Positions 382 to 17,004 of a DNA stretch of 64,000 nt are shown one piece after another. The stretch is from an uncultured Acidobacteriia bacterium (GTDB lineage: Bacteria; Acidobacteriota; Terriglobia; Bryobacterales; Bryobacteraceae). Location of the stretch: assembly GCA_903828455.1 (NCBI GenBank), contig CAIKMJ010000052.1, positions 1-64,000 on the forward strand, given 5' to 3'. The notes beneath the pieces were generated by a model. It had not been told where the DNA came from. It saw only the letters and a program-made list of their open reading frames with translations, and searched no databases. A program made the translations under genes and the position numbers. Position 1 is the stretch's first letter; each line of letters starts with the position of its first letter.

Positions 382-382
382 A

Positions 383-1420: not shown

Positions 1421-1427
1421 GGCGGAC

Positions 1428-2309
1428 CTAATCGCGGAAGCGGCTGGTGATGCCGCTGTAGGCGTCGATGCGGCGGTCGCGGAGGAAGGGCCAGCCGCGG
1501 CGGGTTTCTTCCATGAGTTGGGGGTCGCATTCGACGACAAGGATTTCTTCCTTGTCGTGCGAGGCTTCGGCGAGGATGCGGCCGAAGGGATCGCTGACGA
1601 AGGAAGCGCCCCAGAATTCGAGACCTTTATCGGGCGTGCCTTCGAAGCCGACGCGGTTGACGGCGGCGACGAAGACGCCGTTGGCGATGGCGTGCGAGCG
1701 CTGGATGGTGCGCCAGGCGTCGTGCTGGGCGACGCCGAATTCGGCCTTTTCGGCGGGGTGCCAGCCGATGGCGGTGGGATAGAAGAGGACGCTGGCGCCG
1801 GTGAGGGCGGCGAGGCGCGCGGCTTCGGGGTACCACTGATCCCAGCAGACGAGCGTGGCGATGCGGCCGAACTTTGTATCGAAGGCGCGGAAGCCGAGAT
1901 CGCCGGGCGTGAAGTAGAACTTTTCGAAGAAGAGCGGATCGTCCGGGATGTGCATCTTGCGGTACATGCCGAGCAGGGCGCCGTCGGCGTCGATGACGAC
2001 GGCGGTGTTGTGATAGAGGCCGACGGCGCGCTTTTCAAAAAGCGAGGCGACGATGACGACGCCGAGTTCTTTGGCGAGCGGGCAGAGGCGGGCAGTGGAC
2101 GGGCCGGGGATGGATTCGGCGAGATCGAACAGGCGCGCGTCTTCTTCGCGGCAGAAGTATTGCGAACGGAAGAGCTCTTCGAGGCAGACGATCTGCGCGC
2201 CGGCGGCGGCGGCTTCACGGATTTTGCGCGCGGCGTAATCGAGATTGGCGTCGGGATCTGTGCCGCAGGCAGTCTGGACGAGGCCGATGCGAAACTTGTC
2301 GGGGATCAC
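1428..2309 (-). CDS. aguB: N-carbamoylputrescine amidase (nitrilase superfamily)
   Basis: A 293-residue carbon-nitrogen hydrolase. The nitrilase triad is visible: Glu in CLEELFRSQYF, Lys in MYRKMHIPDDP and Cys in LVCWDQWYPEAAR. The sequence around the cysteine and the PDDPLFFEKFYFTPGD segment are characteristic of N-carbamoylputrescine amidases, which release putrescine, CO2 and ammonia. It is first in a two-gene operon with aguA, which makes its substrate. The ATG at 2307-2309 starts MIPDKFRIGLVQTACG. A promoter would lie in the short gap to the divergent HAD gene at 2357. Confidence 0.9.
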   Translation of the reverse strand: MIPDKFRIGLVQTACGTDPDANLDYAARKIREAAAAGAQIVCLEELFRSQYFCREEDARLFDLAESIPGPSTARLCPLAKELGVVIVASLFEKRAVGLYHNTAVVIDADGALLGMYRKMHIPDDPLFFEKFYFTPGDLGFRAFDTKFGRIATLVCWDQWYPEAARLAALTGASVLFYPTAIGWHPAEKAEFGVAQHDAWRTIQRSHAIANGVFVAAVNRVGFEGTPDKGLEFWGASFVSDPFGRILAEASHDKEEILVVECDPQLMEETRRGWPFLRDRRIDAYSGITSRFRD

Positions 2310-2356
2310 AGGGGTATTTTAGCGGGCGCGCGGGGTTGGTTTGCATAGACTGGTGT

Positions 2357-3031
2357 TTGGCGCATTCGCTGATTCTTTTCGACATTGACGGCACGCTGCT
2401 GCGGCGCGCGGGCCCGCATCACCGGCAGGCGCTGGTGGAGGCGGTGCGCGAGGTGACGGGGCGCGATTCGACCACGGAAGGGATTCCGGTGCAGGGCATG
2501 CTGGATCCGGTGATACTGACGCGCATGATGGAGAACGCGGGGCTGGAGAGCGAGGCGATACGGGCCGCGATGCCGCGCGTGATCGAGGTGGCGCAGGAGG
2601 TTTATGGCGACGGCGTGCCGGATCTGCGGGACCGGATGTGCCCGGGGGTGGTGCCGGTGCTGGAGCAGATGACGGCGCAGGGGCGGGTGCTGGCGCTGGT
2701 GACGGGCAATCTGACGCGCATCGGGTGGCGCAAGCTGGAGCGGGCGGGGATACATCATTACTTCCGGTTCGGAGCGTTTGGCGAGATGGCGGCGACGCGC
2801 GGCGGGCTGGCGCGGCTGGCGATTGAGCGGGCGCGGCGGGAAGGGCTGACGGGGCCGGAGGACGGGGTGGCGCTGATCGGCGATGCGCCGCAGGATGTGG
2901 AGGCGGCGCGCGAGGCGGGGGCGCTGGCGATTGCGGTGCGCACGGGAATCAGTTCGGCGGGCACGCTGGAAGCGCTGGGGCCGGACATTCTGATCGACGA
3001 CCTGACGTGCCTGGATGTGGCCGCTCTGTAA
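2357..3031 (+). CDS. HAD-superfamily hydrolase, phosphoglycolate-phosphatase-like
   Basis: About 224 residues. Motif I is FDIDGTLL near the N-terminus, with the two catalytic aspartates. Motif II is the VTGN segment in LALVTGNLTRIGW. Motif IV is in LIGDAPQDVEAAREAG. The helical cap lies between motifs I and II. This matches the Gph-like HAD phosphatases, which remove phosphate from small metabolites; the substrate cannot be read from sequence. The start is uncertain. TTG at 2357 gives MAHSLILFDIDG and fits the family; TTG at 2336 adds seven residues. It is transcribed divergently from aguB and precedes the spermidine-synthase-like gene by 32 nt. Confidence 0.75.
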   Translation: MAHSLILFDIDGTLLRRAGPHHRQALVEAVREVTGRDSTTEGIPVQGMLDPVILTRMMENAGLESEAIRAAMPRVIEVAQEVYGDGVPDLRDRMCPGVVPVLEQMTAQGRVLALVTGNLTRIGWRKLERAGIHHYFRFGAFGEMAATRGGLARLAIERARREGLTGPEDGVALIGDAPQDVEAAREAGALAIAVRTGISSAGTLEALGPDILIDDLTCLDVAAL

Positions 3032-3063
3032 AGCCGGATACGGCCGTCATTTAAACTGAAGCA

Positions 3064-5436
3064 TTGCCTTCCACAACCGCGTCCAGGCCTGCGAACTGGC
3101 CTCTGCTTTACACTGCCGTCAGTCTGACGACGCTCGCCACGCTGCTGATGGAGCTGTCGCTGACGCGCATTTTTTCGGTGGTCTTCTACTACCACTTTGC
3201 GTTTCTGGCGATTTCGATCGCGCTGTTCGGACTCGGCGCGGGGGGCGTGCTGTCGTACCTGATACCGACGCGCGGGGGATCGGTGTATGCGCGGGTGGGC
3301 GTGGTCAGCCTGATCAATGCGGCGCTGGTGGTGGCGGCGCTGTTGTTTGTGCTGACGCGCGGGGCCGAGGTGGGGACGGTGGAATTCGCGATCATCTACT
3401 TCGTGACGGCGCTGCCGTTTCTGGGTTCGGGGATTATTCTCTCGCTGGTGATTGCGGAAACGATTGAGCGGGTGGACCGGATTTATTTTTTCGATCTGGC
3501 GGGCGCGGCGGGCGGATGTCTGGCGCTGGTGCTGCTGCTGAATGCGTTCGGCGGACCGAATACGGTGGTGGCGGCGGCGGTGTTGTTTGCGGCGGCGGCG
3601 GCGATCTGGTTCAGCCTGGCGGGCGTGCGGATGGGGCGGATATCGAGCGTGTTCATCGGGCTGCTGCTGTTTATGGCGGTGCTGGGGAACACGAAGTACC
3701 GGTTCCTCGAAGTCCGCTATGCCAAGGGGCAGAAGCTGCGGCAGGAGACGTTCACGAAGTGGAACAGCATCTCGCGGATCGGGATGGCGTACGATGCGCA
3801 GGCGGCGAGCGAGATGATTTACATCGATGCCGACGCTTCGACGGGCATTGCGAATTTCGATTTTGAGAAGCTGACGCCGAAGCAGACCGAGTATCTGCTG
3901 CATCAGGGGCCGGCGGTTCCCTACAATCTGCGGCCGGGCGCGAAGACGCTGGTGATCGGGCCGGGGGGCGGCTGGGATGTATCGCGCGCCATCGCGTCGG
4001 GATCGCACGATGTGACGGGGGTGGAGATCAATCCGATTATCGGCACGACGATCATGCGGGAGCGCTTTCCGCAGCTGAGCCGGGATTTGTTTCACCGGCC
4101 CGATGTGCATATCCACATTGAAGACGGACGCAGTTTTGTGCGGCGCAGCGCGGAGAAGTATCAGGTGATTCAGGCGACGCTGGTGGATACGTGGGCGTCG
4201 ACGGCGGCGGGTGCGTTTGCGCTGTCGGAGAACAACCTGTACACGACGGATGCGTTCCGCGATTATCTTTCGCATCTGACCGATGACGGGCTGCTGTGTT
4301 TCACGCGCTGGGGCTTCGATCCGCCGCGGGAGTCGCTGCGGCTGGTGTCGCTGGCGATGGCGGCGCTGAACGAGCTGGGCGAGCATGACGCGGCGCGGCA
4401 TATTCTGGCGGGGCGCTTCGGCACGCGAGCCGATCTGATTGGCTGGGGCACGCAGGACACGGTGATCATTTCACGCAAGGCGCTGAGCGAGGCCGATATG
4501 GCGCATGCGCGCGAGGCGTTTGTGGCGGCGAAGATGCAGTCGCTGTACATGCCGGGCGACGGGACGGGCAATGAGTTCGGCCAGTTGCTGCTGGCGAAGG
4601 ATGCGGCGGCGTATGAGCGCGACTACCGGTTCGACATCACGCCGGTGGATGACAACAGGCCGTTTTTCTTCTACACGGTGCAGCCGCGCGATGTGGCGGC
4701 GTACCTGCTGAACAGCGCGAAGGCGGCGGATGTGAAGGTGAATACGGCGGTGCCGCGGCTGTTTTCGGCGCTGGCGGTGAGCGCGGCGGCGGTGCTGGTG
4801 ATACTGCTGCTGCCGCCGTTTTTGCTGGGGACGAGGCTGCCGCGGGAGCGAGCGGTGCAGTCGTTCCTGCTGTATTTTGTGGCGATCGGCGCCGGATACA
4901 TTCTGGTGGAGGTGGCGCTGATCCAGAAGTTCGTGCTGTTTTTGGGACACCCGACTTACGCGCTGACGGTGGTGATTTTCTCGATGCTGGTTTCGAGCGG
5001 ACTGGGGAGCTTCGTTTCGCGGAAGGTGGTGGCGGACCGGAACCCGCGGCTGCTGGGCGTGCTGTCGTGCGCGGCGGTGGTGGTGGCGGTGCTGGCGGCG
5101 CTGCTGCAGCCGATGCTGTCGGCGGGCGTGGGGCTGCCGCTGGCGGTGAAGATGGCGGCAACGGTTGCGATGATTGCGCCGGCCGGATTTCTGATGGGGA
5201 TTCCGTTTCCGACGGGGCTGCGGTTGCTGGAGAAGCGGCATGCGCCGTCGGTGCGCTGGGCATGGTCGCTGAACGCGGCGGCGAGTGTGCTGGGTTCGGT
5301 GGGGGCGCTGGTGTTCGCGCTGTATTTCGGGCTGCTGCAGACGATGCTGGCGGGCGCGGGGCTTTATCTGGCGGCGCTGCTGCTGGTGGTGGCGAGTCCG
5401 GCGGTCAGGAGTTCTGAGGCGCGGGGGGCGGCGTAG
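3064..5436 (+). CDS. spermidine-synthase-like protein with flanking membrane domains
   Basis: 790 residues in three parts: an N-terminal block of membrane helices (to about residue 220), a soluble Rossmann SAM-binding domain (about 230-560), and a C-terminal block of helices. The SAM motif is VIGPGGGWDVSRAI followed by VEINPII. The equivalent of the polyamine-synthase active loop reads TLVDTWASTAAG rather than the usual DSTDP-type loop, so true aminopropyltransferase activity is doubtful. It lies downstream of putrescine-forming aguB/aguA but is divergent from them, so a polyamine link is only suggestive. Start codon TTG at 3064 gives MPSTTASRPANWPLLY. A second protein of the same general class is at 10285. 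Confidence 0.7.
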   Translation: MPSTTASRPANWPLLYTAVSLTTLATLLMELSLTRIFSVVFYYHFAFLAISIALFGLGAGGVLSYLIPTRGGSVYARVGVVSLINAALVVAALLFVLTRGAEVGTVEFAIIYFVTALPFLGSGIILSLVIAETIERVDRIYFFDLAGAAGGCLALVLLLNAFGGPNTVVAAAVLFAAAAAIWFSLAGVRMGRISSVFIGLLLFMAVLGNTKYRFLEVRYAKGQKLRQETFTKWNSISRIGMAYDAQAASEMIYIDADASTGIANFDFEKLTPKQTEYLLHQGPAVPYNLRPGAKTLVIGPGGGWDVSRAIASGSHDVTGVEINPIIGTTIMRERFPQLSRDLFHRPDVHIHIEDGRSFVRRSAEKYQVIQATLVDTWASTAAGAFALSENNLYTTDAFRDYLSHLTDDGLLCFTRWGFDPPRESLRLVSLAMAALNELGEHDAARHILAGRFGTRADLIGWGTQDTVIISRKALSEADMAHAREAFVAAKMQSLYMPGDGTGNEFGQLLLAKDAAAYERDYRFDITPVDDNRPFFFYTVQPRDVAAYLLNSAKAADVKVNTAVPRLFSALAVSAAAVLVILLLPPFLLGTRLPRERAVQSFLLYFVAIGAGYILVEVALIQKFVLFLGHPTYALTVVIFSMLVSSGLGSFVSRKVVADRNPRLLGVLSCAAVVVAVLAALLQPMLSAGVGLPLAVKMAATVAMIAPAGFLMGIPFPTGLRLLEKRHAPSVRWAWSLNAAASVLGSVGALVFALYFGLLQTMLAGAGLYLAALLLVVASPAVRSSEARGAA

Positions 5437-5469
5437 TTGGGCCGGCTTCCGGTTTGGGCCGCATCGTCA

Positions 5470-5886
5470 TCACGGTAACGCGACGGGCGGTGAAGCGGTG
5501 AGGACGGGCACGACTTTGCAGAGCAGTTCGGCTTTATCGGCGGGCACGATGGCGCGCGTCATGTTGCCCTGATGGTCCATGCCGGAGAGCACGAGCACGG
5601 AGCTGTGCGGTACGAAGATTTCGCAGACGCGGAGGGCATCCTGCGCGGTTCGCACCCAGACCTGCAGTTCCTGATCTTCACGCAGGTGCTTCTGCATGGC
5701 CTGAATCTGGGCGAGGACGATGGCGCCGATGTCGGGGTTCGCCGAAGAGGCGGGGCTGGTGGAAGAGGCGGGGGCGTCGGGCGTTTTCGGTTTTGACTCG
5801 GGTCCGGTGACGGCCTCCATGACGGACTTCTTAGTGGTCTCGATCGCCTGATTGGCAAGGGCTTTGCCGATGTTGCCGATGTTCAT
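5470..5886 (-). CDS. conserved hypothetical protein, 138 aa
   Basis: A soluble-looking protein, not recognised. It has an N-terminal helix (MNIGNIGKALANQAIETTKK), a Pro/Ser/Ala-rich linker around residues 30-50, and a compact C-terminal domain. That domain contains AQIQAMQKHLREDQELQVW and a beta-rich stretch around VCEIFVPHSSVLVLSG. No signal peptide or membrane segment is evident. Its upstream region holds the 27-copy minisatellite at 5936-6355, so its promoter must lie within or beyond the repeats, or in the roughly 50 nt between. Convergent with the gene ending at 5436. Confidence 0.55.
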   Translation of the reverse strand: MNIGNIGKALANQAIETTKKSVMEAVTGPESKPKTPDAPASSTSPASSANPDIGAIVLAQIQAMQKHLREDQELQVWVRTAQDALRVCEIFVPHSSVLVLSGMDHQGNMTRAIVPADKAELLCKVVPVLTASPPVALP

Positions 5887-5935
5887 TCTTTCCGATCCTA
5901 GCAGCTTCGGCGGCGCGCGACGGCGTGTGCGCGGC

Positions 5936-6355
5936 CGGATTGGTGTGGGGGCGGATCGATGCTACGCAGGATCGATGCGACGCGGGATTGGTGCGACGCA
6001 GGATTGATGCGACGCAGGATCGATGCGGGGCAGGATTGATGCGACGCGGGATTGATGCGACGCGGGATTGACGCGACGCAGGATTGATGCGACGCAGGAT
6101 TGGTGCGAGGCGGGATTGATGCGACGCAGGATTGGTGCGAGGCGGGATTGATGCGGCGCAGGATTGATGCGCGGCAGGACGGACGTGGGGCGGATCGATG
6201 CGGGACGGATCGATGCGAGGCGGATTGGTGCGAGGCGGATTGATGCGAGGCGGATTGGTGGGGGGCGGATTGGTGGGGGGCGGATTGGTGCGGGGCGGAT
6301 CGATGCGACGCGGGATTGATGCTACGCAGGATCGATGCGGGGCAGGATTGTTGCA
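5936..6355. repeat. minisatellite, about 27 copies of a 15/16-nt unit
   Basis: Head-to-tail copies of GGATTGATGCGACGCA and variants fill the gap between the genes at 5886 and 6480. Outer copies are 16 nt; a central block of about eight copies is 15 nt and uses GGC instead of GCA/GCG at the junction. Variation is mainly T/C and A/G at positions 5-7 (GATTGAT, GATCGAT, GATTGGT) and GCGACGC versus GCGGGGC. Because 16 is not a multiple of three, the array is not a maintained coding repeat. It lies upstream of the 5886 gene and downstream of the terminator at 6372. Confidence 0.95.
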
Positions 6356-6371
6356 AGCCAGAGCGGCGGGC

Positions 6372-6413
6372 AAAAAAACGGACCGGGTTCGGCGGCGCGC
6401 CGGGACCCGGTCC
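6372..6413 (-). terminator. rho-independent terminator of the DUF3034-like gene
   Basis: A perfect 9-bp stem, GGACCGGGT (6380-6388) with ACCCGGTCC (6405-6413), around a GC-rich loop. Read on the minus strand the stem is followed by G and seven T residues (complement of 6372-6378). It lies about 70 nt after the stop at 6480 and separates that gene from the minisatellite. Confidence 0.9.
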
Positions 6414-6479
6414 ATTGTTTCGAGGCGTGGAATGCTCCGCTGCGGCGCCTGCGGTTTCCGCAGCGGTCTGCGGGATCGA

Positions 6480-7382
6480 TTATTTGCCGAAGCCGTAGGA
6501 GACGGCGGCGACGAAGCGCGCGCGGGCCTGGAGGTCGATGCCGGGCTGGATTTTGCCGGCGATCTGCGCGACGCCGAGGTCGACGTTCAGCTTCGTGCCT
6601 TTGACGGGGACGATGCGGACGGCGTAGTCGACCGTAGTCGGAATGCTGGCGGCGGGCAGACCCTGGGGGTGATTGCGCTGCTGCGAGATTTCCGAGGCGA
6701 GGATGATGTTGCCGCCGGCGGGTCCTTTGAACACGAAGGCAACGGTGCCGAAGGCCGCCGGGTCCCACGCGGTGGCGTTGCCGGCGAGGCCCCAGAGCGA
6801 GGCGTTGGTATCTTTGACGCCGCCGCTCAGAATGAAGGGCAGACCTTTCACCTGCGTGACGGTTTTGCTGGCGACGAGGTAGAAATCCGCATTGTTGGTG
6901 GTCTTCGCGCTGAGGTAGCCGCCGACGTTGCGGACGCCGGCGCGTTCGATAAATCCAGCCGAGATGGCGGGCAGCCAGTTGCGCTTGCCGGCGTTTTCCG
7001 GAACGACGACGAACTTGGCGTGGACGACGTTAAAGCCGCTGCTCCAGACGGGGCTGAGCGCGTTGCCTCCCTGCGAATGGACGTCGCGGGTGTAGCCGAA
7101 TTCGAGGCGATTGAAGGCGCCTTCGGTGACCGAGAGGGTGTTGAAGTTGCCGAGGACGTTGCCACCATCGAGGATGTGCCAGGCGACGGATGGCATGCCG
7201 AGCCCCTTTCCGGTGGAAGGCGCGGTATAGGCGAAGGGATTGAGATAAACGCCGGTGACTCCTTCGAAGTTCAGACTCTGCGCATTCAGTATGGCCGCGG
7301 GCGCCAGCAGGACGGTGGCCAGCGAGATCGCGATGCGGGTGCGCAGTGAGCGCAGCTGTAGGTTATGGGTTAGGTTTTTCAT
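6480..7382 (-). CDS. outer-membrane beta-barrel-type protein, DUF3034-like
   Basis: 300 residues with a signal peptide (basic start MKNLTHNLQLRSLRTR, hydrophobic core, cleavage after AILNAQ). The mature part begins SLNFEGVTGVYLNPFAYTA, which resembles the DUF3034 family of predicted outer-membrane proteins. The rest is rich in short amphipathic strands with alternating aromatic residues and ends near VAAVSYGFGK, in keeping with a beta-barrel. Function is unknown. Expression probably depends on sigma-54: a near-perfect -24/-12 element lies 30-45 nt upstream of the ATG, and AGGG before the start can serve as ribosome site. A strong terminator follows, so the gene is probably monocistronic. Confidence 0.65.
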   Translation of the reverse strand: MKNLTHNLQLRSLRTRIAISLATVLLAPAAILNAQSLNFEGVTGVYLNPFAYTAPSTGKGLGMPSVAWHILDGGNVLGNFNTLSVTEGAFNRLEFGYTRDVHSQGGNALSPVWSSGFNVVHAKFVVVPENAGKRNWLPAISAGFIERAGVRNVGGYLSAKTTNNADFYLVASKTVTQVKGLPFILSGGVKDTNASLWGLAGNATAWDPAAFGTVAFVFKGPAGGNIILASEISQQRNHPQGLPAASIPTTVDYAVRIVPVKGTKLNVDLGVAQIAGKIQPGIDLQARARFVAAVSYGFGK

Positions 7383-7411
7383 AGTGGACCCTGAAGGGTG
7401 CCGAAGCAGGA

Positions 7412-7427
7412 AGCAAGATGCGTGCCA
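7412..7427 (-). promoter_or_regulatory. sigma-54 (RpoN) -24/-12 promoter
   Basis: Read on the minus strand the sequence is TGGCACGCATCTTGCT, a full match to the sigma-54 consensus TGGCACG-N4-TTGCW. The expected transcription start is about 12 nt downstream of the -12 GC, near 7400, leaving a leader of about 20 nt before the ATG at 7382. The upstream region (7440-7620) is free of genes and could hold an activator site; the perfect palindrome GCGATATCGC lies there. The rest of 7383-7720 holds only this promoter and the terminator at 7646-7702. Confidence 0.8.
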
Positions 7428-7645
7428 CTCGCGCGAATGTGAAAAACAGGTGAATTATGGGGGCGTTTGCCGGCTGTTTCCTCAGTAAAATGAGCGATTC
7501 TGCTCACGCCTGCGCGACAAAACACAGCGATATCGCGCGGCGTGAATTGACACTGCGGGGAGACGAAGGGGCGGCGGAAATTCGACGATTTTTGTAGTCG
7601 GTGCGGTGAGGATCAGGCGGCGGAATGGCTCACGCGCGGGAGGGC

Positions 7646-7702
7646 AAAAAACAACCGGCGATGCGAAGCCCGAGAGGATCCGTCAGGCTTTGCACCGCCG
7701 GT
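7646..7702 (-). terminator. rho-independent terminator of the patatin gene
   Basis: The arms 7654-7670 (ACCGGCGATGCGAAGCC) and 7686-7702 pair at 15 of 17 positions, and the other two are wobble-compatible. On the minus strand the hairpin is followed by GTTTTTTG. It lies just after the stop of the cNMP/patatin gene at 7721. Confidence 0.85.
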
Positions 7703-7720
7703 GGCTGGAGAGGCGGACAG

Positions 7721-9697
7721 CTAGGAGGAGCGCTTCATCCACGGGCCGAGTTTCTGGCCGATGGCGCGTTTGATGGCCGGCATGGCGCGTTCGGTTGCTT
7801 CTTCGCCGCGCTGGATGAGTTCGGCGGAGCGGTAGTATTCGACCCAGGTGAAGTCGCTCAGTTCGGGGTTGATGAGAACGTCGGCGGAGATGGCTTTGAA
7901 GTTGCCGAGTTCGTACTGCAGAATCTGCATCGAATTCATAATGATGTCGAACATATTCGGCAGTCCCTGGCTGTCTTCGAGCCAGGACATGGGATTCATT
8001 TTGTTGAGCTGGCGGATGCTCTTGGAGACGGCGTTTTCGACGCCGAGTTTGAGCGGGGGCACGACGTTGACGGCGATGCAGAGATCGGCGCCCATGCCGT
8101 TGACCACTTCGGCGGGAACCGGGTCGGTGACGCCGCCGTCGACCAGTACCCGTTCGCCGCGCTTGACCGGGGCGAAGACCATGGGGACGGAGGCGCTGGC
8201 GCGGAAGGCGGCGGAGAGGCTGCCGGTGCCGATGGCGACGCGTTCGCCGCTCTGGATGTCGGTGGCGACGGTGCGGCAGGGCATGACCAGATCTTCGAAG
8301 CGCGACCTGTTGCCGAGCAGCGGGGCAAAAATATTGACGAAACGGTTGCCGGCGAGGATGCCGGGTCTGGTGAGCGTGAGGTCGACGGCGAGGAGGGAAT
8401 TTTCCTTCTTGCCGAGGCCGAGCGCGATTTCGATCATTTGCTCGGTGCTGACGCCGGCGGCGTAGCCGACGCCGATGATGGAACCCTGCGAGCAGCCGGC
8501 CACGAGATCGATAAAGATGCCGTTGCGTTCGAGAACCTTGAGCACGCCAAGGTGAGCGATACCGAAGGCGGCGCCGCCGCCGAGGGCCACGCCAACGGTG
8601 GCGCCGAGGATTTTACGCGCGAGCCGGTGCATGGGCAGAGCGGCGGTGGCGTGCGGGGAGCGGCGGATGTAGTCGGCGCCGTCACCGGCGGAAGTGAGGG
8701 CAGCATCCTTGGGTAGTACGAAGGGTTCGCAATGGCTGATGGGGATGCGGTGGGATTTGGGATTTTCGAGGTTGATGACGTGGAAATGCTTGAGGCGGGC
8801 GGCGGGCTGATCGGCGCCGGCGGCAGGGGGAGCGGCGGGCGGCGGCGGGGCGTCGACGATTTCCACGGCGACGTCGGCGAAGCCGGGGACGGAATCCCAG
8901 AGGGCGGGATTTTCGGCCGCCAGATCGAAGATCATGAACGGGAAGCGATCGCTCAGCTTGGAGATCAGGTTGGAGGCGCGTTCGCTGTAAAAGCTGACGG
9001 GGTGTTCGCCGAAGACGGGAACCTCGACGAGGAAGACGCCGTCGCGGTGCTGCTGCATGAGGTCGTTAAACGCTTCGGGCCCATGGGTGAGGGCGTCGGA
9101 GAGGAGATCGGCAACGGTGCCTTCGGCTCTGGTGAGGCCGGGATGGACGTGGACCATGAGGACGTCGGCGCCGGTGAGATCGTGCAGGATGCCGGCGAGC
9201 GAGGTGGCGACCATGGACTTGCCTTTGAGGCCGGGTTTGCCGCCCACGGCAATGGTGAGCGTGGCGCCGCGCGTGACTTCGCCCTTGCTGGTGGCGGCGA
9301 GACGTTTACAGAGTACGCGGGTGAAGTATTCGAGGGCGCGGGGGTTCTTGAGGAAGAGGCCGTTGAAGGCGGTGCGGTCCAGCCAGACGAGGCGGACGCG
9401 GCGAGAGGCCTGAACGGTGGCGGTGCGCTTGCCGCCCTGGAGCAGAGCCATTTCGCCGAAGAAGTCGCCGCGTTTGAGGACGGCGGCGAGGCGCTGCTGC
9501 TGGCCGTCGCTGGCGAGGACTTCCAGTTCGCCGTCGAGCACGATGTAGAAGCGGTCGCCTTCATCGCCCTGACGGCAGATGACGTCACCCTTTTGTTTTG
9601 ACTCTTCAACGAACAGATCCTTGACCGCGTCGATATCGGCGCGGCTCAGGAAGCTGAAAATCGGGATGGTGGATAGTATCTCGTGCCAGTCAGCCAT
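7721..9697 (-). CDS. cyclic-nucleotide-binding, P-loop and patatin-like phospholipase fusion
   Basis: 658 residues, three modules. Residues about 10-130 are a cNMP-binding domain with the phosphate-binding cassette FFGEMALLQGGKRTATV. Residues about 145-290 resemble a ParA/MinD-type P-loop domain, starting AVGGKPGLKGKSMVATSLA, with a deviant Walker A. Residues about 360-560 are a patatin lipase: oxyanion glycines GVALGGGAAFGIAHLG, nucleophile GCSQG, and dyad aspartate in VDGGVTDPVP. The layout recalls NTE-type lysophospholipases, which are membrane-associated and gated by the cNMP domain. No clear signal peptide is seen. AAGG lies about 10 nt before the ATG, and a strong terminator follows. 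The middle module may be vestigial. Confidence 0.85.
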   Translation of the reverse strand: MADWHEILSTIPIFSFLSRADIDAVKDLFVEESKQKGDVICRQGDEGDRFYIVLDGELEVLASDGQQQRLAAVLKRGDFFGEMALLQGGKRTATVQASRRVRLVWLDRTAFNGLFLKNPRALEYFTRVLCKRLAATSKGEVTRGATLTIAVGGKPGLKGKSMVATSLAGILHDLTGADVLMVHVHPGLTRAEGTVADLLSDALTHGPEAFNDLMQQHRDGVFLVEVPVFGEHPVSFYSERASNLISKLSDRFPFMIFDLAAENPALWDSVPGFADVAVEIVDAPPPPAAPPAAGADQPAARLKHFHVINLENPKSHRIPISHCEPFVLPKDAALTSAGDGADYIRRSPHATAALPMHRLARKILGATVGVALGGGAAFGIAHLGVLKVLERNGIFIDLVAGCSQGSIIGVGYAAGVSTEQMIEIALGLGKKENSLLAVDLTLTRPGILAGNRFVNIFAPLLGNRSRFEDLVMPCRTVATDIQSGERVAIGTGSLSAAFRASASVPMVFAPVKRGERVLVDGGVTDPVPAEVVNGMGADLCIAVNVVPPLKLGVENAVSKSIRQLNKMNPMSWLEDSQGLPNMFDIIMNSMQILQYELGNFKAISADVLINPELSDFTWVEYYRSAELIQRGEEATERAMPAIKRAIGQKLGPWMKRSS

Positions 9698-9825
9698 CTA
9701 TATACCTTAGAACATCAGGCTGGAAATTCGCAGCAATTTCTGAATTGCAAAACAATGAATCGGGGCTCTTTGCAGTATTTTTCCGGCAAGGGCGCGCAGA
9801 ATGAGTTGCCCGATTTACGCAGGGA

Positions 9826-10266
9826 TTATGCGTCTTCCAGCCAGCGGCGCATCTGGTCGCGGGGAACGAGGCCGGCCTGCTGGCGCACGACCTTGCCGCC
9901 GCGCATGACGACGAAGTTGGGGATCGACTGAATGCGAAAGCGGCCGGCGAGCTGAAAGAGGGCTTCGGTATCGACTTTGAGGACGAGGGCGCGGCCGGCC
10001 ATCTCCTTTGCGAGGGCTTTGACTTCCGGGGCGGCCATGCGGCAGGGGCCGCACCATTCGGCCCAGAAATCGATGAGAACCGGGACCGGGGATTCGTTTA
10101 CCAGAGCGGCGAACTGTTCATCGCCGGCGACGTCGAGCGGTTCATCGAGAGGCGGGATAGGGGCGTGGCAGGAGCCGCATTTGCCGGTGTGGGCGAGGTG
10201 ACGGGCGGGGATGCGGTTGGTGGTGCCGCAGGCCTCGCAGGGCCGCAGGAGGGCAGCTTCAGTCAT
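9826..10266 (-). CDS. trxC: thioredoxin 2 with N-terminal zinc ribbon
   Basis: 146 residues. The N-terminal CEACGTTNRIPARH and CGSC give a four-cysteine zinc ribbon, as in TrxC. The thioredoxin domain follows with active site FWAEWCGPCRMAAPEV and the cis-proline region IQSIPNFVVM. It reduces protein disulfides in the cytoplasm and is typically linked to oxidative stress. It begins 18 nt after the stop of the spermidine-synthase-like gene at 10285, on the same strand, so the two may be cotranscribed. The 128-nt gap down to 9698 (the start of the patatin gene) carries no feature I can name. Confidence 0.9.
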   Translation of the reverse strand: MTEAALLRPCEACGTTNRIPARHLAHTGKCGSCHAPIPPLDEPLDVAGDEQFAALVNESPVPVLIDFWAEWCGPCRMAAPEVKALAKEMAGRALVLKVDTEALFQLAGRFRIQSIPNFVVMRGGKVVRQQAGLVPRDQMRRWLEDA

Positions 10267-10284
10267 GGCGGGGCATCGCTTCCA

Positions 10285-12762
10285 TTATTGTCCGCCGGAT
10301 TGTTTTGCGACGGCGGCTGCGAGGGCGGCGAGGCTGGCGGGCGAGCCGGCGAAGACGGGGCCGGGTGAGCGGCGGTAGGTGAGCATGTCGCGATAGAGAT
10401 TATCGGCGATGTTGGAATTGATGCCCCAGCCGGCGAGATAGGAGAGGCGGAGGTTGGAATCGCGATTGATTTCGGCGCCTTTGGTCCAGACGCCGAGGTC
10501 GGACTGCTGGCCGGCCCAGGTGCCGAACAGATCGGCCACCGAAGCGATGCCGATGCCGGCGAGGGATTCGCGGACGGGGGCGTAGTCGGGACGGGCGTAG
10601 CGCGCGGCGACGGCATCGAGATCGATGCGGAGAGGTTCCACCTGGCCGAGGAAGACCATGTCGTAGCCGGCGCCGTCGCGCGTGTTGGCCCAGACGGAGG
10701 CGTTGGGAAAGGCTTCGAAGAAGGTCTGGAGTTCGCTGCGAATGGTTTGTTCGTCGGTTTCGTAGAGCGGGACGTAGAGCGAGAAATAGCCGCCGGGATT
10801 GAGGTGGCGTTTGACGGCTTCGAAGTACTCGACCGAATAGAGGGCGGCGGTGCCTTTGACGAAGACGTCGAGGGGATCGGAGGCGATGATGTCGTACTTC
10901 GCGTTGGTGGTCATGAGGAAGTGGCGGGCGTCGTCGAAGACCACGTGGGTTTTGGGATTGAGATAGACGGCGTAGTCCTGCGCGGCGAAGAATTCGGTGG
11001 AAGTGGGGGGGATGACGGGTTCGATTTCGCAGACGGTGATCTTTTCGATTCCGGGATAGCGGGTGAAGGTGCCGGCGGAGACGCCCGCGCCGAAGCCGAT
11101 GCCGAGTACCGACTTCGGATTCGGATGCAGGAGGCCGGGCAGGTGGCCGACCATGCGCTGCAGTTTCATGTCGAAGATTTCCGTGGTGGCTTCGACGTGG
11201 CCGTTGACGTTGACGTACACCGCGCCGTTATTCCAGCGGGAAATTGCGACCGAAGAGTTGCGGCCTTCGACAACTTTGAGGATGGTGGAGAGGCCTTTAT
11301 CGGCGTTCATCATGCGGCCGTAGGCGATCAGTTCGCCAGGGACGGCGGGAAGCGCCCAGGCGAGCGCGGCCGAGGCGGCGAGGCTGGCCGGCAGCAGAGC
11401 GCGCCAGAGGATGGAGCGGCTGCGCATGGCGAGCGGGCCGAGGACGAAGAGGGCGCTGGCACCGGATACGACGAGCAGCAGGCGCTGGCAGTTCTGCGTG
11501 CCGATGGCGGGAATCAGCCACAGGCTGATGGCGAGGGCGCCGACGATGCCGCCGAGGGTGTTGGCGGCGTAGACGGCGCCGGTAACTTTGCCGCTGTCTT
11601 CGGCGCGCGAGCGCAGGGCGGCGGCGCAGGCGAGGGGGAAGCTGACGCCCCACAACAACGATGCCGGCAGGACGGCCCAGAGGCAGCGTTTGAGGTCGAG
11701 GGCGAACATCTGCCAGTGGCTGGAGGTGGTGATGAGGTCGTCATTCCAGTAGGGAAGGATTTGCGCGATCATGACGGCGGCCCAGATGATGCCGAGAGTC
11801 TGGAGCAGCTGGCAGAGGCCGAGCATGGGGGCCGGGCGCAGGCGGCGGATGACGGAGGAGGCGGCGGCGCCGCCGATGGCGAGGCCGATGAGGAAGACGG
11901 CGAGGATGATGGAGAAGACGTAGACGGTGCCGAGCAGGAGCATGCCGAGAAGGCGCGTCCAGACGACTTCGGCTCCGAGGGCGCAGGCGCCGGAAAGGGC
12001 GGTGGTGAGGTAGATGGTCCAGAGGGGGAGGGGGTCGCGGAGGGTGTCGTCGGCGGGGGCGGTTGCGGCTGCTTCGGGTTCGGCGGGATTCTGCGTAGCG
12101 AGGTGTTGTGTGGCGAGGTGCTGTGTGGCGAGGTGCGGTGAGGCTGAGCGGCTGAGCATCCAGCTGACGGCGGCGACGAGGAAGTTCAGGGCGGCGGCGC
12201 ACCAGGCGGCGGTGGCCATATCGAAAACACGAAGCAGATAGAAGCCGGCGACGAGGCAGCCGGCGACGGCGCCGGCGGTGTTGGCGCCGTAGAGCAGGGC
12301 CCACCAGGAGACGCCTTCGGGAGTGTTTTCAATCCAGCGCACGATGGCGGGGAGCGAGGCGCCCATCAGTATGGTGGAGGGCAGCATGGCGATGGCGGCG
12401 ACGACGCCGCGCAGCAGCATGCCGGGCAGGCCGTGTTCGGCACCGGTGACATAGACGGCGGTGATGAGCGGCATGGCGGCGGTTACGATGACGCCGAGCA
12501 GACCGATGCCGAGTTCGAGGCCCGCGTAAACCCGCAGCGGGTGCAGGTTGGCCGCGGCCTTCGAGCGCGGCAGCGCGAGGCTGCCGATGCAGAGCCCGCC
12601 CATGAAGGTGGCCAGCAGGATGCCGAGCGAGACCGAAGTGGAACCGATGGCCAGCTGCAGCACCTGGTACCAGGCGACCTCGTAGACCAGGGCGGAGCAG
12701 CCGCTGGCGCCGAACAGGAGCAAGAGCAGGAAGAGGGAGAGGGAGGATCGTTGGGCGGGCAT
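10285..12762 (-). CDS. fused multi-pass membrane/spermidine-synthase-like protein
   Basis: 825 residues. An N-terminal transporter-like membrane domain of about 12 helices (to roughly residue 500) opens LLLLLFGASGCSALVYEVAWYQ, a signature of this fused family. A C-terminal Rossmann domain follows with VLGIGFGAGVSAGTF, CEIEPVI and IIASDPLDVFVKGTAAL. The last motif keeps an acidic active loop closer to spermidine synthase than the protein at 3064. Substrate is unknown. An in-frame 15-nt repeat (12100-12145) inserts LATQHLATQHLATQ into the loop after about residue 210. The upstream region is occupied by another 15-nt repeat array. Confidence 0.75.
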   Translation of the reverse strand: MPAQRSSLSLFLLLLLFGASGCSALVYEVAWYQVLQLAIGSTSVSLGILLATFMGGLCIGSLALPRSKAAANLHPLRVYAGLELGIGLLGVIVTAAMPLITAVYVTGAEHGLPGMLLRGVVAAIAMLPSTILMGASLPAIVRWIENTPEGVSWWALLYGANTAGAVAGCLVAGFYLLRVFDMATAAWCAAALNFLVAAVSWMLSRSASPHLATQHLATQHLATQNPAEPEAAATAPADDTLRDPLPLWTIYLTTALSGACALGAEVVWTRLLGMLLLGTVYVFSIILAVFLIGLAIGGAAASSVIRRLRPAPMLGLCQLLQTLGIIWAAVMIAQILPYWNDDLITTSSHWQMFALDLKRCLWAVLPASLLWGVSFPLACAAALRSRAEDSGKVTGAVYAANTLGGIVGALAISLWLIPAIGTQNCQRLLLVVSGASALFVLGPLAMRSRSILWRALLPASLAASAALAWALPAVPGELIAYGRMMNADKGLSTILKVVEGRNSSVAISRWNNGAVYVNVNGHVEATTEIFDMKLQRMVGHLPGLLHPNPKSVLGIGFGAGVSAGTFTRYPGIEKITVCEIEPVIPPTSTEFFAAQDYAVYLNPKTHVVFDDARHFLMTTNAKYDIIASDPLDVFVKGTAALYSVEYFEAVKRHLNPGGYFSLYVPLYETDEQTIRSELQTFFEAFPNASVWANTRDGAGYDMVFLGQVEPLRIDLDAVAARYARPDYAPVRESLAGIGIASVADLFGTWAGQQSDLGVWTKGAEINRDSNLRLSYLAGWGINSNIADNLYRDMLTYRRSPGPVFAGSPASLAALAAAVAKQSGGQ

Positions 12763-12790
12763 TCCGGTACAGGGTGTAGCGTATCACTGC

Positions 12791-12880
12791 TCTCTGCTGT
12801 GCGGCTCTTTGCTGAGCGGCGCTTTGCTGTGCGGCGCTTTGCTGTGCGGCGCTTTGCTGAGCGGCGCTTTGCTGAGCGGC
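12791..12880. repeat. six copies of a 15-nt tandem repeat
   Basis: Unit GCTTTGCTGAGCGGC, with CTGTGCGGC variants. It fills most of the gap between the divergent starts at 12762 and 12960, so promoters for both genes must be embedded in or next to it. Confidence 0.9.
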
Positions 12881-12959
12881 TTCAGCGCAGTTTGCATGGC
12901 CTGGCGCAAAATTGCTGCGACCGATTGCGTTCCCGTTCATCTTCAACGAAGGAGACCGA

Positions 12960-13385
12960 ATGAAACGAACCGCATCCGCACACTGGGCCGGTGGCCTGAA
13001 AGACGGCAAGGGCACCATTTCGACGCAGAGCACTGTTCTGAGCAATACGCAGTATTCCTTCAGCACGCGCTTTGAGGAGGGGGTGGGGACGAATCCGGAA
13101 GAGCTGATCGCCGCCGCGCATGCGGGGTGTTTCACGATGGCGCTCTCGGGACAGCTGGCGAAGGCCGGGCTGACGGCGGAGAGCATCGCGACCACCGCGA
13201 CGATCACGATGGAAAAGACCGACGCTGGTTTCACGATCACGGCCTCGCATCTGGATGTGACGGCGCGCATTCCGGGGGCGGATGCGGCGGCGTTTCAGAC
13301 GGCGGCCGAGGGGGCGGAGAAGGGCTGCCCGGTGTCGCGCGTGCTGAATGCGGCGATTACGATGACGGCGAAGCTGGAAGCGTAG
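12960..13385 (+). CDS. OsmC/Ohr-family peroxiredoxin-like protein
   Basis: 141 residues, starting MKRTASAHWAGGLKDGKG at an ATG preceded by GAAGGAGA, a strong ribosome site. The two redox cysteines of the OsmC family are present: one in AAAHAGCFTMALSG and one in EGAEKGCPVSRVLN. NPEELIAAAHA is the conserved dimer and active-site helix. It matches the OsmC/YhfA-type hydroperoxide-reducing proteins. Translation could start upstream at 12912, but the ribosome site decides for 12960. Convergent with the propeller regulator ending at 13395. Confidence 0.85.
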   Translation: MKRTASAHWAGGLKDGKGTISTQSTVLSNTQYSFSTRFEEGVGTNPEELIAAAHAGCFTMALSGQLAKAGLTAESIATTATITMEKTDAGFTITASHLDVTARIPGADAAAFQTAAEGAEKGCPVSRVLNAAITMTAKLEA

Positions 13386-13394
13386 ACCGTTTCG

Positions 13395-15509
13395 TTACTT
13401 GAAATTTTCCACGAGGTTGAGATCCCAGTTGGTGCCGTCTTCCTGCGACCAGACGAGGTAGCGTCCGTCCGGTGAAAGGGAGAGGCCGACGTCGGGCTTC
13501 TTTGTCTTCACGATGGTTCGGCGGCTGCCGGTTTTGAAGTCGATATAGTCGATGGCCGAGCCGGCGGTGAGATAGACGCCGTTTTCGGTGATGGCGAAGT
13601 TGTTGCGGAACAGGGAATCGGTAAGCTGCGTTTCCGGACCGCCCGCGAGGGGCCGCTTCCAGAGCGAGCCGGTGCCGGCCTGTTTGGCGTAGTAAAGCCA
13701 TTTGCCGTCCGGCGACTCGGCTGCCGCGACTCCGCCGTTCTGCGTGAGCTGGACCGGTGTGCCGCCCTGCGCGGGTAGCTTCCAGAGTTGCTGGATGTTG
13801 GCTCCGGAATTGACCGTGTAGTAGATCCAGCGGCCGTCGCGCGACCAGGTTCCGAGGTACTCGCCGGTCCGGCCGCTGGTGAGCTGGCGGATTTTGCCGC
13901 CATCGGCGGAGACGGTGTAGAGGTGATAATCGCCGGTGGTGTTGGAATCGAAGACCACGGTGCGGCCGTCGGGCGACCAGCGCGGCGAACCGAACACGCC
14001 GGGGCGGGGCGGCGTGAGAGGCATGGCGTTGGAGCCGTCGGCATCGGAGACCCAGATCTGAATGCTGCCGGAGCGGTTGGAGTAGAAGAGCAGGCGCTTG
14101 CCGTCCGGTGAATATTGCGGAAAGACCTCGCGGCGGGTGGAGGTGATGAGGGGTTCGGGGGCGGCGTCTTTTGCGCCGGCGTTTTGGGCGGTGAGGTCGA
14201 GACGCCAGATGTCGCTGTTTTTCATGCCTTCCGAGTACACGAGGCGGTGGCGGTTTTGCGACCAGGCGAGGGAGGCCACGCGGGTGCCGAGGGTATTGAC
14301 GGGAACCGGGTCAGCGCCTCCGGTGGCGGGCACGCGGTAGGTGGTACCGGAGTAGGTGCGGTAGAGCAGTTCCTTGCCGCCGTTGAGCCAGAGCAGTTGC
14401 AGGGGGCGAAGATCCCCTCCGGGCAAGGTTCGCAAATCTCCGGCGGGGGCGTAATTGCGGTCCAGCGGCAGGAGGTAGACGGTGCCGCCCACTCCGGGAT
14501 GCGCGCGCAGGAAGGCGAGGCTGGCGCCATCGGGCGAGAAGGCTGGCCGGTCATCGCGGAGGTCGTTTTCCGGCGGATTTGTCAGGGGGCGGACTTCGCC
14601 GGTTTCGGCGGAGATCAACAGGATGCGGTCTTTTCCGTCGGCGGCGTGGTCGCCGGAGACGGCAAGCCATTTGCCGTCGGGCGACCAGCTCAGTTGCGGG
14701 GCAGTCTGGACGCTCAGCACTTCGGCTTCGTGGTAGACGACAGTGGTCAGTTTTCGCTCCGGGCCGCCGAGGGGGGAGATCAGGAGGATTTCGACGGCGG
14801 CGCCTGGCAGGAGCCGTTCGAAGGCAATGGCCGTGCCGTCGGGCGACCAGCGCGGCATATCGTCCTTAACGGGGTTGGTGGTGAGGCGAAGAGGGTTTTC
14901 CGAGCCGACGGCCTTTATATAGATGTCGAAATTGTCACCCTTGGGACCGTTCCAGGCGAAGGCGATCTGGTTGCCGTCCGGGGAAAAAGTGGGGTTGACC
15001 TCGGTGCCGGGGTAGCTGGTAAACGGTACGGGCGGAGAGGGCGGCGGGTCGGTGCGGAGATAGCGGACGGCTCCGGCGGCGGTGGCGAGGAGGGCGGCGG
15101 CGGCGAGTCCCCAGAGGGCGAACCGGGAGTGACGGCGTTGCGGCGGCGCGGCTGGGGGCTGGGCTACTACGGGAGCCGGCGCGGGGTCGGTCTGGACTGC
15201 GGCGGCGAAACGGTAGCCGACGGTGGGGATGGTTTCGATGAAGCGGGGTTGTTTGGGATCGTCGTCGAGCGCTTTGCGGATTTGGGCGACGGCGCGGGTG
15301 AGGGCGTTGTCGGAGACGGCGACGCCCTCCCAGACGACGGTGAGAAGCTCCTCTTTCGGGACGGCGCGGTGGCGGTTTTCGATGAGAAACTGCAGGAGGC
15401 GGAAGGATTTCGGCTCCAGCGGGCAGATTTCGCCGTTCGCTGTAAGGCGAAGATTCAAAACATCTAAAACGAACCGATCGAAGCGGTAGGGGGCTCCGGG
15501 TAACTCCAT
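13395..15509 (-). CDS. winged-helix (CadC/OmpR-type) DNA-binding protein with TolB-like beta-propeller
   Basis: 704 residues. Residues 1-105 are an OmpR-type winged helix: FRLLQFLIENRHRAVPKEE, then the recognition helix region VSDNALTRAVAQIRKAL, ending ETIPTVGYRFAA. A single membrane helix lies near 130-150 (LWGLAAAALLATAAGAV). The rest is a periplasmic six- or seven-bladed propeller of PD40/WD40-like repeats with recurring WSPDG and FSPDG motifs. This is a one-component membrane regulator type common in acidobacteria, with cytoplasmic DNA binding and periplasmic sensing. It is divergent from the aspartyl protease at 15590, with a nested palindrome between them that may be its operator. Confidence 0.85.
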   Translation of the reverse strand: MELPGAPYRFDRFVLDVLNLRLTANGEICPLEPKSFRLLQFLIENRHRAVPKEELLTVVWEGVAVSDNALTRAVAQIRKALDDDPKQPRFIETIPTVGYRFAAAVQTDPAPAPVVAQPPAAPPQRRHSRFALWGLAAAALLATAAGAVRYLRTDPPPSPPVPFTSYPGTEVNPTFSPDGNQIAFAWNGPKGDNFDIYIKAVGSENPLRLTTNPVKDDMPRWSPDGTAIAFERLLPGAAVEILLISPLGGPERKLTTVVYHEAEVLSVQTAPQLSWSPDGKWLAVSGDHAADGKDRILLISAETGEVRPLTNPPENDLRDDRPAFSPDGASLAFLRAHPGVGGTVYLLPLDRNYAPAGDLRTLPGGDLRPLQLLWLNGGKELLYRTYSGTTYRVPATGGADPVPVNTLGTRVASLAWSQNRHRLVYSEGMKNSDIWRLDLTAQNAGAKDAAPEPLITSTRREVFPQYSPDGKRLLFYSNRSGSIQIWVSDADGSNAMPLTPPRPGVFGSPRWSPDGRTVVFDSNTTGDYHLYTVSADGGKIRQLTSGRTGEYLGTWSRDGRWIYYTVNSGANIQQLWKLPAQGGTPVQLTQNGGVAAAESPDGKWLYYAKQAGTGSLWKRPLAGGPETQLTDSLFRNNFAITENGVYLTAGSAIDYIDFKTGSRRTIVKTKKPDVGLSLSPDGRYLVWSQEDGTNWDLNLVENFK

Positions 15510-15558
15510 CAGCGTTCCATCACCGGCGTTCAGAATAACATCCTCCGCGCATCACGAC

Positions 15559-15596
15559 TTGTCATGGCTGCTGGCCGCAATGTGGCCACATGACAA
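15559..15596. promoter_or_regulatory. nested palindrome in divergent promoter region, possible operator
   Basis: Outer arms TTGTCATG (15559-15566) and CATGACAA (15589-15596) pair perfectly; inner arms TGGCC (15572-15576) and GGCCA (15584-15588) pair too. The element lies in the 80-nt gap between two divergent genes and overlaps the ATG of the protease gene. It could be a binding site for the neighbouring winged-helix protein or a hairpin masking the start. Confidence 0.5.
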
Positions 15597-16426
15597 CACG
15601 CCACCTCATTCGTTTCGTCGTCAATTTTACGATCGGTTCACTCATGATAGTCACTGCCGCCGAGCCCTGCAACGCAAAAGCGCCGGAGCCGGCCGCGGCC
15701 GGAACGAAGCTGCGGCTGATGGGGGGACGGCCGGTGGTGGACGACGTGTATCTAAATGGTCAGGGGCCGTTCCGGTTCCTGATTGACACGGGAGCGGCGA
15801 GCAACCAGTTCGACGCGGCGCTGGCCCGGAAGCTGGGGCTTGAGGCGAGCTTCCAGCTGGAGCTGGCGACGGCCGGTGGAACGACATTTGTCAAGGGAGG
15901 CCGCGTGGGTGAGGTGAGGCTGGGAGCGGCGAAGGCTTCGAATCAGGAATTCCTTTTTACTACGCTTGACGGGGTTCACGCGCTTTCGTCGTCGATCCAG
16001 GGCGTGCTGGGCGAAGAGTTCCTGGCGAAGTTCGATTACCTGCTGGATTTCCGCAACAGGCGGGTGGAGTTTGCGGCGGAGGGCGGGACGGCACAGGGCG
16101 GGGCAGGGACGAGGGCGGCGTTCCGGATGATCGAAGGACTGCCGGCGATACAGACGAGCGAAGGCGAACTGGCGGTGGATTCGGGCACGGACACGACGGT
16201 GCTGTGCCGGGCGGGGCAGGGGGCGGCGGCGCAGATCCGCACGGCTTCGGGGTTTGCGGAGGTTGCGACGGGGAGCGTGCGGGTGCGGATTGGAGAACGC
16301 GAGGTCCGGCCGGCGCAGACGGCGTTTGCGCCGCGGGCGGCGCTGGCGGCGGACGGGCTGCTGCCGGCGAGTCTGTTCCGCAGCGTATTCTTCAGCAATT
16401 CGGGCCACTACCTCGTGCTGGAGTAG
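15590..16426 (+). CDS. secreted retropepsin-like aspartyl protease
   Basis: 278 residues with a signal-peptide-like start (basic, then VVNFTIGSLMIVTAA). The first catalytic motif is FRFLIDTGAASNQFD near residue 65. A second Asp motif, LAVDSGTDTTVL, lies near 200, so both lobes may sit in one chain as in pepsin-like bacterial proteases. Substrate is unknown. The start is supported by the signal sequence, though no ribosome site precedes it and the ATG is inside the palindrome at 15559-15596. The divergent winged-helix/propeller gene may regulate it. Confidence 0.75.
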   Translation: MTTRHLIRFVVNFTIGSLMIVTAAEPCNAKAPEPAAAGTKLRLMGGRPVVDDVYLNGQGPFRFLIDTGAASNQFDAALARKLGLEASFQLELATAGGTTFVKGGRVGEVRLGAAKASNQEFLFTTLDGVHALSSSIQGVLGEEFLAKFDYLLDFRNRRVEFAAEGGTAQGGAGTRAAFRMIEGLPAIQTSEGELAVDSGTDTTVLCRAGQGAAAQIRTASGFAEVATGSVRVRIGEREVRPAQTAFAPRAALAADGLLPASLFRSVFFSNSGHYLVLE

Positions 16427-16450
16427 CGGGCTGTGCTAATTCTGATTTGA

Positions 16451-16999: not shown

Positions 17000-17004
17000 A
17001 TCCT

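Follow-up and report, generated by a model that had tools for sequence, protein, structure and literature searches.

Among described enzymes, those closest in layout to the protein analyzed here are NTE/PNPLA6-PNPLA7, in which cyclic-nucleotide-binding (cNMP) domains, a P-loop-like domain and a patatin domain follow each other along the chain. PNPLA7 and NTE, which have a layout of this kind, are presented as lysophospholipases in PMC5704489 and PMC9319352, and the animal NTE-type enzymes carry three cNMP domains according to PMC5704489. The window analyzed in this work, a stretch of 64,000 nucleotides of contig CAIKMJ010000052.1 from an uncultured Acidobacteriia bacterium, contains on the minus strand, at positions 7721-9697, a gene for a 658 amino acid (aa) protein that combines, in the same order, one cNMP domain, a MinD/ParA-like middle and a patatin domain. 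Apart from the three domains, the analysis reported below shows conserved residues at the presumed cNMP contacts and at the catalytic Ser/Asp positions, a predicted ParA/MinD-type fold in the middle, and a decayed P-loop. Our preferred reading, held with moderate confidence, is that of a patatin (lyso)phospholipase which is located in the cytoplasm, is regulated by cyclic nucleotides and has a MinD-like relay.

PlpD is a secreted phospholipase with a patatin domain similar to that of the window protein, but its solved chain (314 residues; PDB 5fya/5fqu) has neither a cNMP nor a P-loop module. To our knowledge, both modules are also missing from RssA, for which the NCBIfam model NF007623 comprises 301 positions; the patatin part of the window protein matches this model with 135 bits (E 2.6e-39), far under the cut-off of 272. 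The CBASS phospholipases CapV and CapE have a similar patatin core, and the Pycsar cNMP effectors a similar cNMP core, but both differ from the window protein in the domain set, and the window's contig lacks the cyclase match expected for Pycsar. Finally, the ATPases MinD, ParA, Soj, FleN and BcsQ share the predicted fold and a Walker-B-like strand with the middle of the window protein, in which, however, the Walker A motif is decayed, the strand-2 Asp motif is gone and the domain is embedded between two others.

Three domains in one chain

The open reading frame (ORF) starts with ATG, runs through 658 aa with zero internal stops and is encoded over its whole length in six relatives, at 54-68% identity. 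Counted per codon against each of these relatives, the differences amount to 0.25-0.32 at position 1, 0.17-0.28 at position 2 and 0.52-0.62 at position 3. Because the frame is full-length in all six and the third codon position differs most, we consider the sense frame to be the coding one. The gene is overlapped by antisense ORFs, of which one of 363 aa shows 38-48% identity to its counterparts in the relatives and another of 197 aa (7872-8465, plus strand) 58-68%; given that the sense frame is better kept in this latter stretch (67-77%), the antisense ORFs are taken for shadows.

Unless stated otherwise, the features described below lie on the minus strand. The cNMP domain with its helices occupies residues ~4-135 (9293-9688), as delineated by Pfam, Foldseek and the predicted secondary structure, the Pfam match itself (cNMP_binding, PF00027) covering residues 34-117 (E 1.7e-23, 82.8 bits, above the cut-off). 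The patatin domain, identified by Pfam and Foldseek, spans residues 367-653 (7739-8599), with PF01734 matching at residues 371-531 (E 3.6e-23, 83.2 bits, above the cut-off). This is the single PF01734 match at E <= 0.001 in the 4.4-Mb genome to which the window belongs, which rules out that the protein is one of several patatins of that genome. Pfam detects nothing in the ~165-residue middle between the two domains. For a full-length AlphaFold2 (AF2) model (predicted local distance difference test score, pLDDT, 75.8; predicted TM-score, pTM, 0.76), the best solved match found by Foldseek is PlpD 5fya (E 1.2e-20, 33% identity), followed by a lipase complex, CapE, CapV, and the cyclic-nucleotide domains of PKA, PKG and CRP-type proteins.

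Residue conservation was examined in two alignments, A1 with seven window-type rows and A2 with 17 rows (4 window-type, 4 Omnitrophota and 9 Desulfobacterota); loci L037, L038 and L049 encode the same proteins as L034, L033 and L003, hence the inclusion in A2 of four of the seven window-type rows. The phosphate-binding cassette of the cNMP domain, FGEMALLQGGKRTATV (residues 80-95; 9413-9460), is aligned in both. In the cassette FGEMALLQGGKR of A1, Glu82 and Arg91, which we take to be the cNMP contacts, are invariant (7/7 rows), and in A2 Glu82 is kept in 17/17 rows and Arg91 in 13/17, with His in all four Omnitrophota rows. The window protein thus has both features expected of a cNMP domain, the PF00027 match above the cut-off and the Glu/Arg pair of the cassette. 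In the patatin domain, which apart from the PF01734 match displays the GxSxG and DG[GA] motifs, the nucleophile elbow GCSQG (8483-8497) with Ser403 and the DGG motif (8132-8140) with Asp520 provide a dyad that is invariant in 17/17 rows of A2 and 7/7 rows of A1. The oxyanion loop GGGAAFG (residues 373-379; 8561-8581) is likewise invariant in A1 (7/7) and, with Phe in all seven window-type proteins, departs from the pattern GGGx[RK]G; in A2, the same position is occupied by Leu or Phe in the four Omnitrophota rows and by Arg in the nine Desulfobacterota rows. Arg or Lys is usual at this position in most patatins, but hydrophobic residues are found there in PNPLA2-type enzymes, and for this reason we do not treat the GGGx[RK]G pattern as defining patatins.

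The middle (residues 145-309; 8771-9265) is predicted to adopt a ParA/MinD-type alpha/beta fold. Modelled alone with AF2 from the 17-row alignment, residues 138-366 gave alternating strands and helices (pLDDT 81, pTM 0.81), and Foldseek matched this model to ParA 3ea0 (E 1.1e-7), Soj 1wcv (2.6e-7) and MinD 1hyq (2.6e-6). The best 50 Foldseek rows (E 1e-7 to 1.5e-5) are all titled ParA/Soj, MinD, FleN/FlhG, BcsQ, McdA, or nitrogenase and nitrogenase-like complexes, the last presumably through their Fe-protein chains; given TM-scores (query) of 0.53-0.64 and root-mean-square deviations of 5.9-9.1, this is a match at the level of the fold. The same relationship emerged from profile comparison, controlled by column shuffles and reversals, in which the profile of the window-type middles matched a six-row ParA/MinD set with P 5.9e-8 (0/60 column shuffles as good), independently of the Omnitrophota and Desulfobacterota rows. 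Five rows of this set come from 12 own-genome AAA_31 loci (six were without a pattern match and one was a duplicate ORF) and the sixth from the Riflebacteria protein L076, described below. The window-type middles also match those of Omnitrophota (P 2.7e-5, 0/60 shuffles as good), and a comparison with the Desulfobacterota middles gave no match (3/60 shuffles as good). At the place of the middle, Pfam finds AAA_31 above the cut-off in two of the four Omnitrophota relatives (L039, 5.1e-7; L107, 6.5e-8) and below it in L069 and L046. On the strength of the AF2 model, Foldseek and profile comparison, we reject the idea that the middle is a mere disordered linker.

The nucleotide-binding motifs of the middle are degraded. 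In its Walker A motif GKPGLKGKS (residues 153-161; 9215-9241), Lys158-Gly159 is invariant in A1 and Lys160 is present in 6/7 rows, being replaced by Glu in L003, the protein of genome G116 from another family of the phylum; the loop is longer by one residue in 4/7 A1 rows, and A2 has Arg, Gln, Cys or Leu for the P-loop Lys in its 13 distant rows. Where the ParA/MinD set has its strand-2 Asp motif, the middle reads VHVHPG. A Walker-B-like strand, FPFMIFDL (residues 252-259; 8921-8944), aligns with the Walker B strand of ParA/MinD, and its Asp258 is invariant in 7/7 A1 rows and lost in the Desulfobacterota rows of A2. The middle has neither a conserved KGGxGK[ST] P-loop nor the strand-2 Asp expected of a working enzyme, and it is therefore not filed as a ParA/MinD ATPase; judging by these motifs, it is probably a decayed, non-hydrolysing relay.

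An earlier note on this DNA, made from the letters alone, had proposed a cNMP domain, a deviant P-loop module and a patatin in one chain, with a ParA/MinD-like insert, and had named structure prediction as the check. The ORF, Pfam and structure prediction bear out the three-part layout, and the middle (~145-310) is predicted to fold as a P-loop type domain of the ParA/MinD kind, in agreement with Foldseek and the profile comparison; at the level of prediction, the outcome that the note had named as refuting, a middle that does not fold in this way, did not occur. The word deviant was too mild for a P-loop-type module in which the catalytic Lys is not conserved, the loop length varies and the strand-2 Asp motif is absent. 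The pairing of sensor and MinD-type domain was also observed without patatin: the 987-aa product of L076:850-3810 (Riflebacteria) combines a cNMP-binding domain, a MinD/ParA-type AAA_31 domain and TPR repeats, and the P-loop of its AAA_31 domain, ARAGYGKTT, looks intact.

Proposed cyclic-nucleotide control and competing readings

In the mechanism that we propose, cAMP or cGMP would bind the N-terminal cNMP domain, and ligand binding would alter the packing of the MinD-like middle on the C-terminal patatin, or its presentation of that domain. The enzyme would then dock on the membrane and/or its active site would open, and the patatin would cleave (lyso)phospholipids, so that fatty acids are freed for turnover. 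The middle would serve as a structural relay, perhaps a dimerisation or membrane-positioning module, with no role as an ATPase. The location of the window protein in the cell, its binding of a ligand, its lipase substrate, the relay role and membrane docking are all features that we infer. Control of the (lyso)phospholipase activity by a cyclic nucleotide, which the earlier note had suggested as a gate on phospholipid hydrolysis, is plausible in view of the conserved contact residues, the conserved Ser-Asp dyad and two class III cyclases (PF00211) that the genome encodes on contigs C15 and C41, other than the window's contig C52; the presence of these cyclases means that the ligand can probably be made in the host. 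Release of fatty acids would fit the surroundings of the four Omnitrophota loci (L039, L046, L069 and L107), where the cNMP-patatin gene belongs to a co-directional run that includes, downstream of it, an acyl-CoA synthetase (4/4), an S33-type hydrolase (3/4, the fourth contig ending before that point) and the beta-oxidation genes for thiolase, 3-hydroxyacyl-CoA dehydrogenase and enoyl-CoA hydratase (2/4), a setting compatible with recycling of the fatty acids that the patatin would release.

Several observations weigh against this reading. PF00211 cyclases were found in all 12 related genomes that were searched, and six of these 12 are without the gene at E <= 1e-60; since genomes without the gene have cyclases too, their presence does not establish a specific link. 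When ORFs of >= 90 aa from window positions 1-20000 were compared with regions of 12-18.5 kb around the six relatives, no conserved neighbour was found at E <= 1e-8, so the gene appears to stand alone. The link to fatty acids depends on loci of the distant Omnitrophota, which share other neighbours too, and the His that replaces the contact Arg in these proteins (4/17 A2 rows) suggests that cyclic-nucleotide binding is perhaps not general in the wider family. As for the fold of the middle, the alignment used for its model included MinD-like Omnitrophota rows, a possible pull towards MinD; moreover, the 17-row profile matches the PDB sequence of MinD 1g3q over almost the whole length (E 3e-10) but the best match of the window-type profile alone is an unconvincing one to ferritin (E 0.49), from which it follows that the strength of the 1g3q match stems from the other rows. 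The final points come from the animal enzymes. A cAMP analogue, 8-CPT-cAMP, is reported to have moved PNPLA7 to lipid droplets and left its activity largely unchanged (PMC5704489), the esterase activity of NTE in vitro was unaffected by cAMP (as cited in PMC9319352), and, according to PMC9319352, there is no evidence that the domains of NTE bind cAMP. The animal evidence on cAMP control is mixed, given that PMC9025805 reports that chemicals raising cAMP increased the level and esterase activity of NTE in HeLa cells, and that mouse NTE bound the catalytic subunit of fly PKA-C3 in two-hybrid tests.

The fact that PNPLA7 moved with little change in activity, together with the MinD-like character of the relay (AF2, Foldseek and profile comparison), makes a serious rival of the view that the cNMP domain and the middle set the membrane docking of an always-active patatin, so that location would be controlled and not catalysis. 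MinD-type proteins are membrane-positioning ATPases, which we count in favor of docking control; MinD, however, requires ATP for docking, and the P-loop Lys of the middle is not conserved. The raised esterase activity of NTE in HeLa cells also speaks against control of location, to which we assign a substantial but clearly minor share of the probability. It is quite unlikely, by comparison, that the middle still functions as an ATPase or as a nucleotide switch and that the enzyme reads both a cyclic nucleotide and ATP. The window protein does possess Lys160 and Asp258, which are kept in 6/7 and 7/7 A1 rows, respectively, and the Riflebacteria protein L076 is an example of a cNMP protein with an intact-looking MinD-type P-loop; against this stand the Glu of L003, the variable length of the loop, VHVHPG in place of the strand-2 Asp motif and the substitutions of the P-loop Lys in the 13 distant rows. 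A decayed relay under cyclic-nucleotide control remains our preferred reading.

Relation to NTE and to antiphage effectors

The domain order of the window protein recurs in L018, a protein of the same phylum in which Pfam places NTE_Ploop (PF24179, "NTE family P-loop like domain") between the cNMP and patatin domains, and the earlier note had called the window protein NTE-like. This holds for the domain order; for family membership, the middle gives no support. PF24179, which matches in 10/297 genomes of the phylum, gave zero matches at E <= 10 in the whole genome of the window, and comparison of the window-type profile with that of the NTE_Ploop middles (8 of the 10 loci, with L121 and L124 left out) was null, 35/60 shuffles being as good; by sequence, then, the middle is not NTE_Ploop. 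The ParA/MinD set, which matches the window-type middles, also matches the NTE_Ploop set weakly (P 3.4e-4, 0/60 shuffles as good), and the best PDB match of the NTE_Ploop profile, to designed TIM barrels (E 2.3e-4), is taken as chance. The oxyanion loop differs as well, being GGGARG-like in the listed NTE_Ploop proteins (GGGGARG, in one case SGGGARG) versus GGGAAFG in the window protein. Instead of more than one cNMP domain, as in NTE, the window protein has a single stretch, whereas L018 has two; this difference is a weak guide, as five NTE_Ploop ORFs of 605-635 aa are short enough for one.

Patatin phylogeny points in neither direction. A first tree of 40 rows, to which 12 of 26 other patatin loci contributed a domain of > 200 aa and from which L041 was omitted, places the window group nearer to RssA-like patatins with weak support (89/66); in a tree of 35 rows, obtained by removing five long-branch rows, the window group lies with the Omnitrophota patatins on one side, also with weak support (77/57). 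The NTE_Ploop rows form a group of their own in both trees (100/100). The approximately unbiased test (p-AU), subject to a long-branch warning, rejected neither a tree with all cNMP-patatin groups on one side (0.173) nor one that unites the window group with the NTE group and L011 (0.217); the value for the window group with Omnitrophota and Desulfobacterota was 0.306. The weakly supported patatin tree neither joins the window group to NTE nor excludes a common origin. The protein is built like NTE, but lacks a defining feature of the family, NTE_Ploop, by sequence. Strict orthology between this bacterial protein and NTE/PNPLA6-7 accordingly appears improbable to us: the order of domains shared with L018, the matches of the ParA/MinD set to both kinds of middle and the p-AU of the joint clade are outweighed by the null results for the middle, by one cNMP domain instead of two or three, and by the separate position of the NTE_Ploop rows.

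A further conceivable role is that of a Pycsar- or CBASS-like antiphage effector, in which the cyclic nucleotide of a phage-triggered cyclase would activate a membrane-destroying lipase. PADLOC models of Pycsar systems match the cNMP part (PycC, 5.9e-13; TIR effector, 1e-10), CBASS-type phospholipase models match the patatin part weakly (6e-4), and in one relative of six (G154) the cNMP-patatin gene and a class III cyclase on the opposite strand are ~3.6 kb apart (L038:1592-3922, minus strand, in the place of G154:C60:30556-31083). However, the PADLOC matches span single common domains only, no conserved partner gene was found around the six relatives, the cognate cyclase that adjoins a Pycsar effector has no counterpart among PF00211 matches on the window's contig, and the other five relatives have no class III cyclase on the contig of the gene (one of these contigs is merely 12.4 kb long). 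With the cyclases of the genome on other contigs and the PADLOC matches confined to single domains, we reject a Pycsar or CBASS effector as very improbable.

Distribution, gene surroundings and implications

The distribution of the gene is patchy, as few genomes of the genus, phylum and class match. A search of 61 genomes, including the window's own, yielded six matches at E <= 1e-60, namely, the window genome and five congeners at 63-68% identity, which corresponds to 6/19 genomes of the genus and 0/42 others. Among 149 genomes drawn evenly from the phylum, G116, from another family, matches over the whole length (56%), and most of the other matches listed are confined to either the patatin or the cNMP part; of 250 genomes from the class, matches at E <= 1e-60 come solely from the window genome and from G158. 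Full-length relatives thus occur in the window's genus, in a second family of its phylum and in both Omnitrophota and Desulfobacterota, that is, in at least three phyla.

Around the gene, a Thioredoxin 2-type protein with an N-terminal zinc ribbon is encoded just upstream on the same strand (9826-10266, minus strand); its gene is not found beside the cNMP-patatin gene in the regions fetched around the six relatives. Two large ORFs with a spermine-synthase-type domain flank the gene, one on either side, at 3064-5436 (plus strand; E 4.2e-4, below the cut-off) and 10285-12762 (minus strand; E 4.4e-20), and in both the domain is preceded by a long, hydrophobic-looking N-terminal stretch. In 6/8 Desulfobacterota loci listed (L040, L042, L043, L047, L048 and L081), the cNMP-patatin gene is immediately preceded, on its own strand, by a gene of ~400-430 aa (LALEPKEVLVVAN...); a Pfam scan of one of its products (L043:4734-6005) found nothing.

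Literature searches confined to open-licence papers brought up no title or abstract on a bacterial cNMP - MinD-like - patatin protein, which is no proof that such a description is lacking. The earlier note had called the combination unusual, which needs toning down, considering that the NTE layout is already modelled by Pfam and that NTE_Ploop is present in 10 genomes of the same phylum. The architecture is best described as a variant of the known NTE-type layout, noteworthy for its MinD-type middle and for full-length relatives in several phyla; were it merely another cNMP-patatin, this lipase would be of limited interest. For the unsettled question of how cNMP domains control NTE-type lipases, a bacterial protein of 658 aa, with its single cNMP domain and conserved contacts, should be more tractable in production and assays than an enzyme that is membrane-anchored and 1327 residues long. 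In addition, a MinD-like relay suggests a specific purpose for the middle segment, namely, membrane positioning. We tentatively entertain, as a less likely extension, that a cNMP sensor, a ParA/MinD-type relay and a patatin were joined repeatedly, or once very early, with the window, Omnitrophota, Desulfobacterota and NTE types each retaining its own decayed MinD-like relay. If so, the "P-loop like" domain of NTE would derive from a MinD module by decay, and bacterial proteins in which AAA_31 is still recognizable would constitute a simpler model of the control of NTE-type lipases by cyclic nucleotides via membrane positioning.

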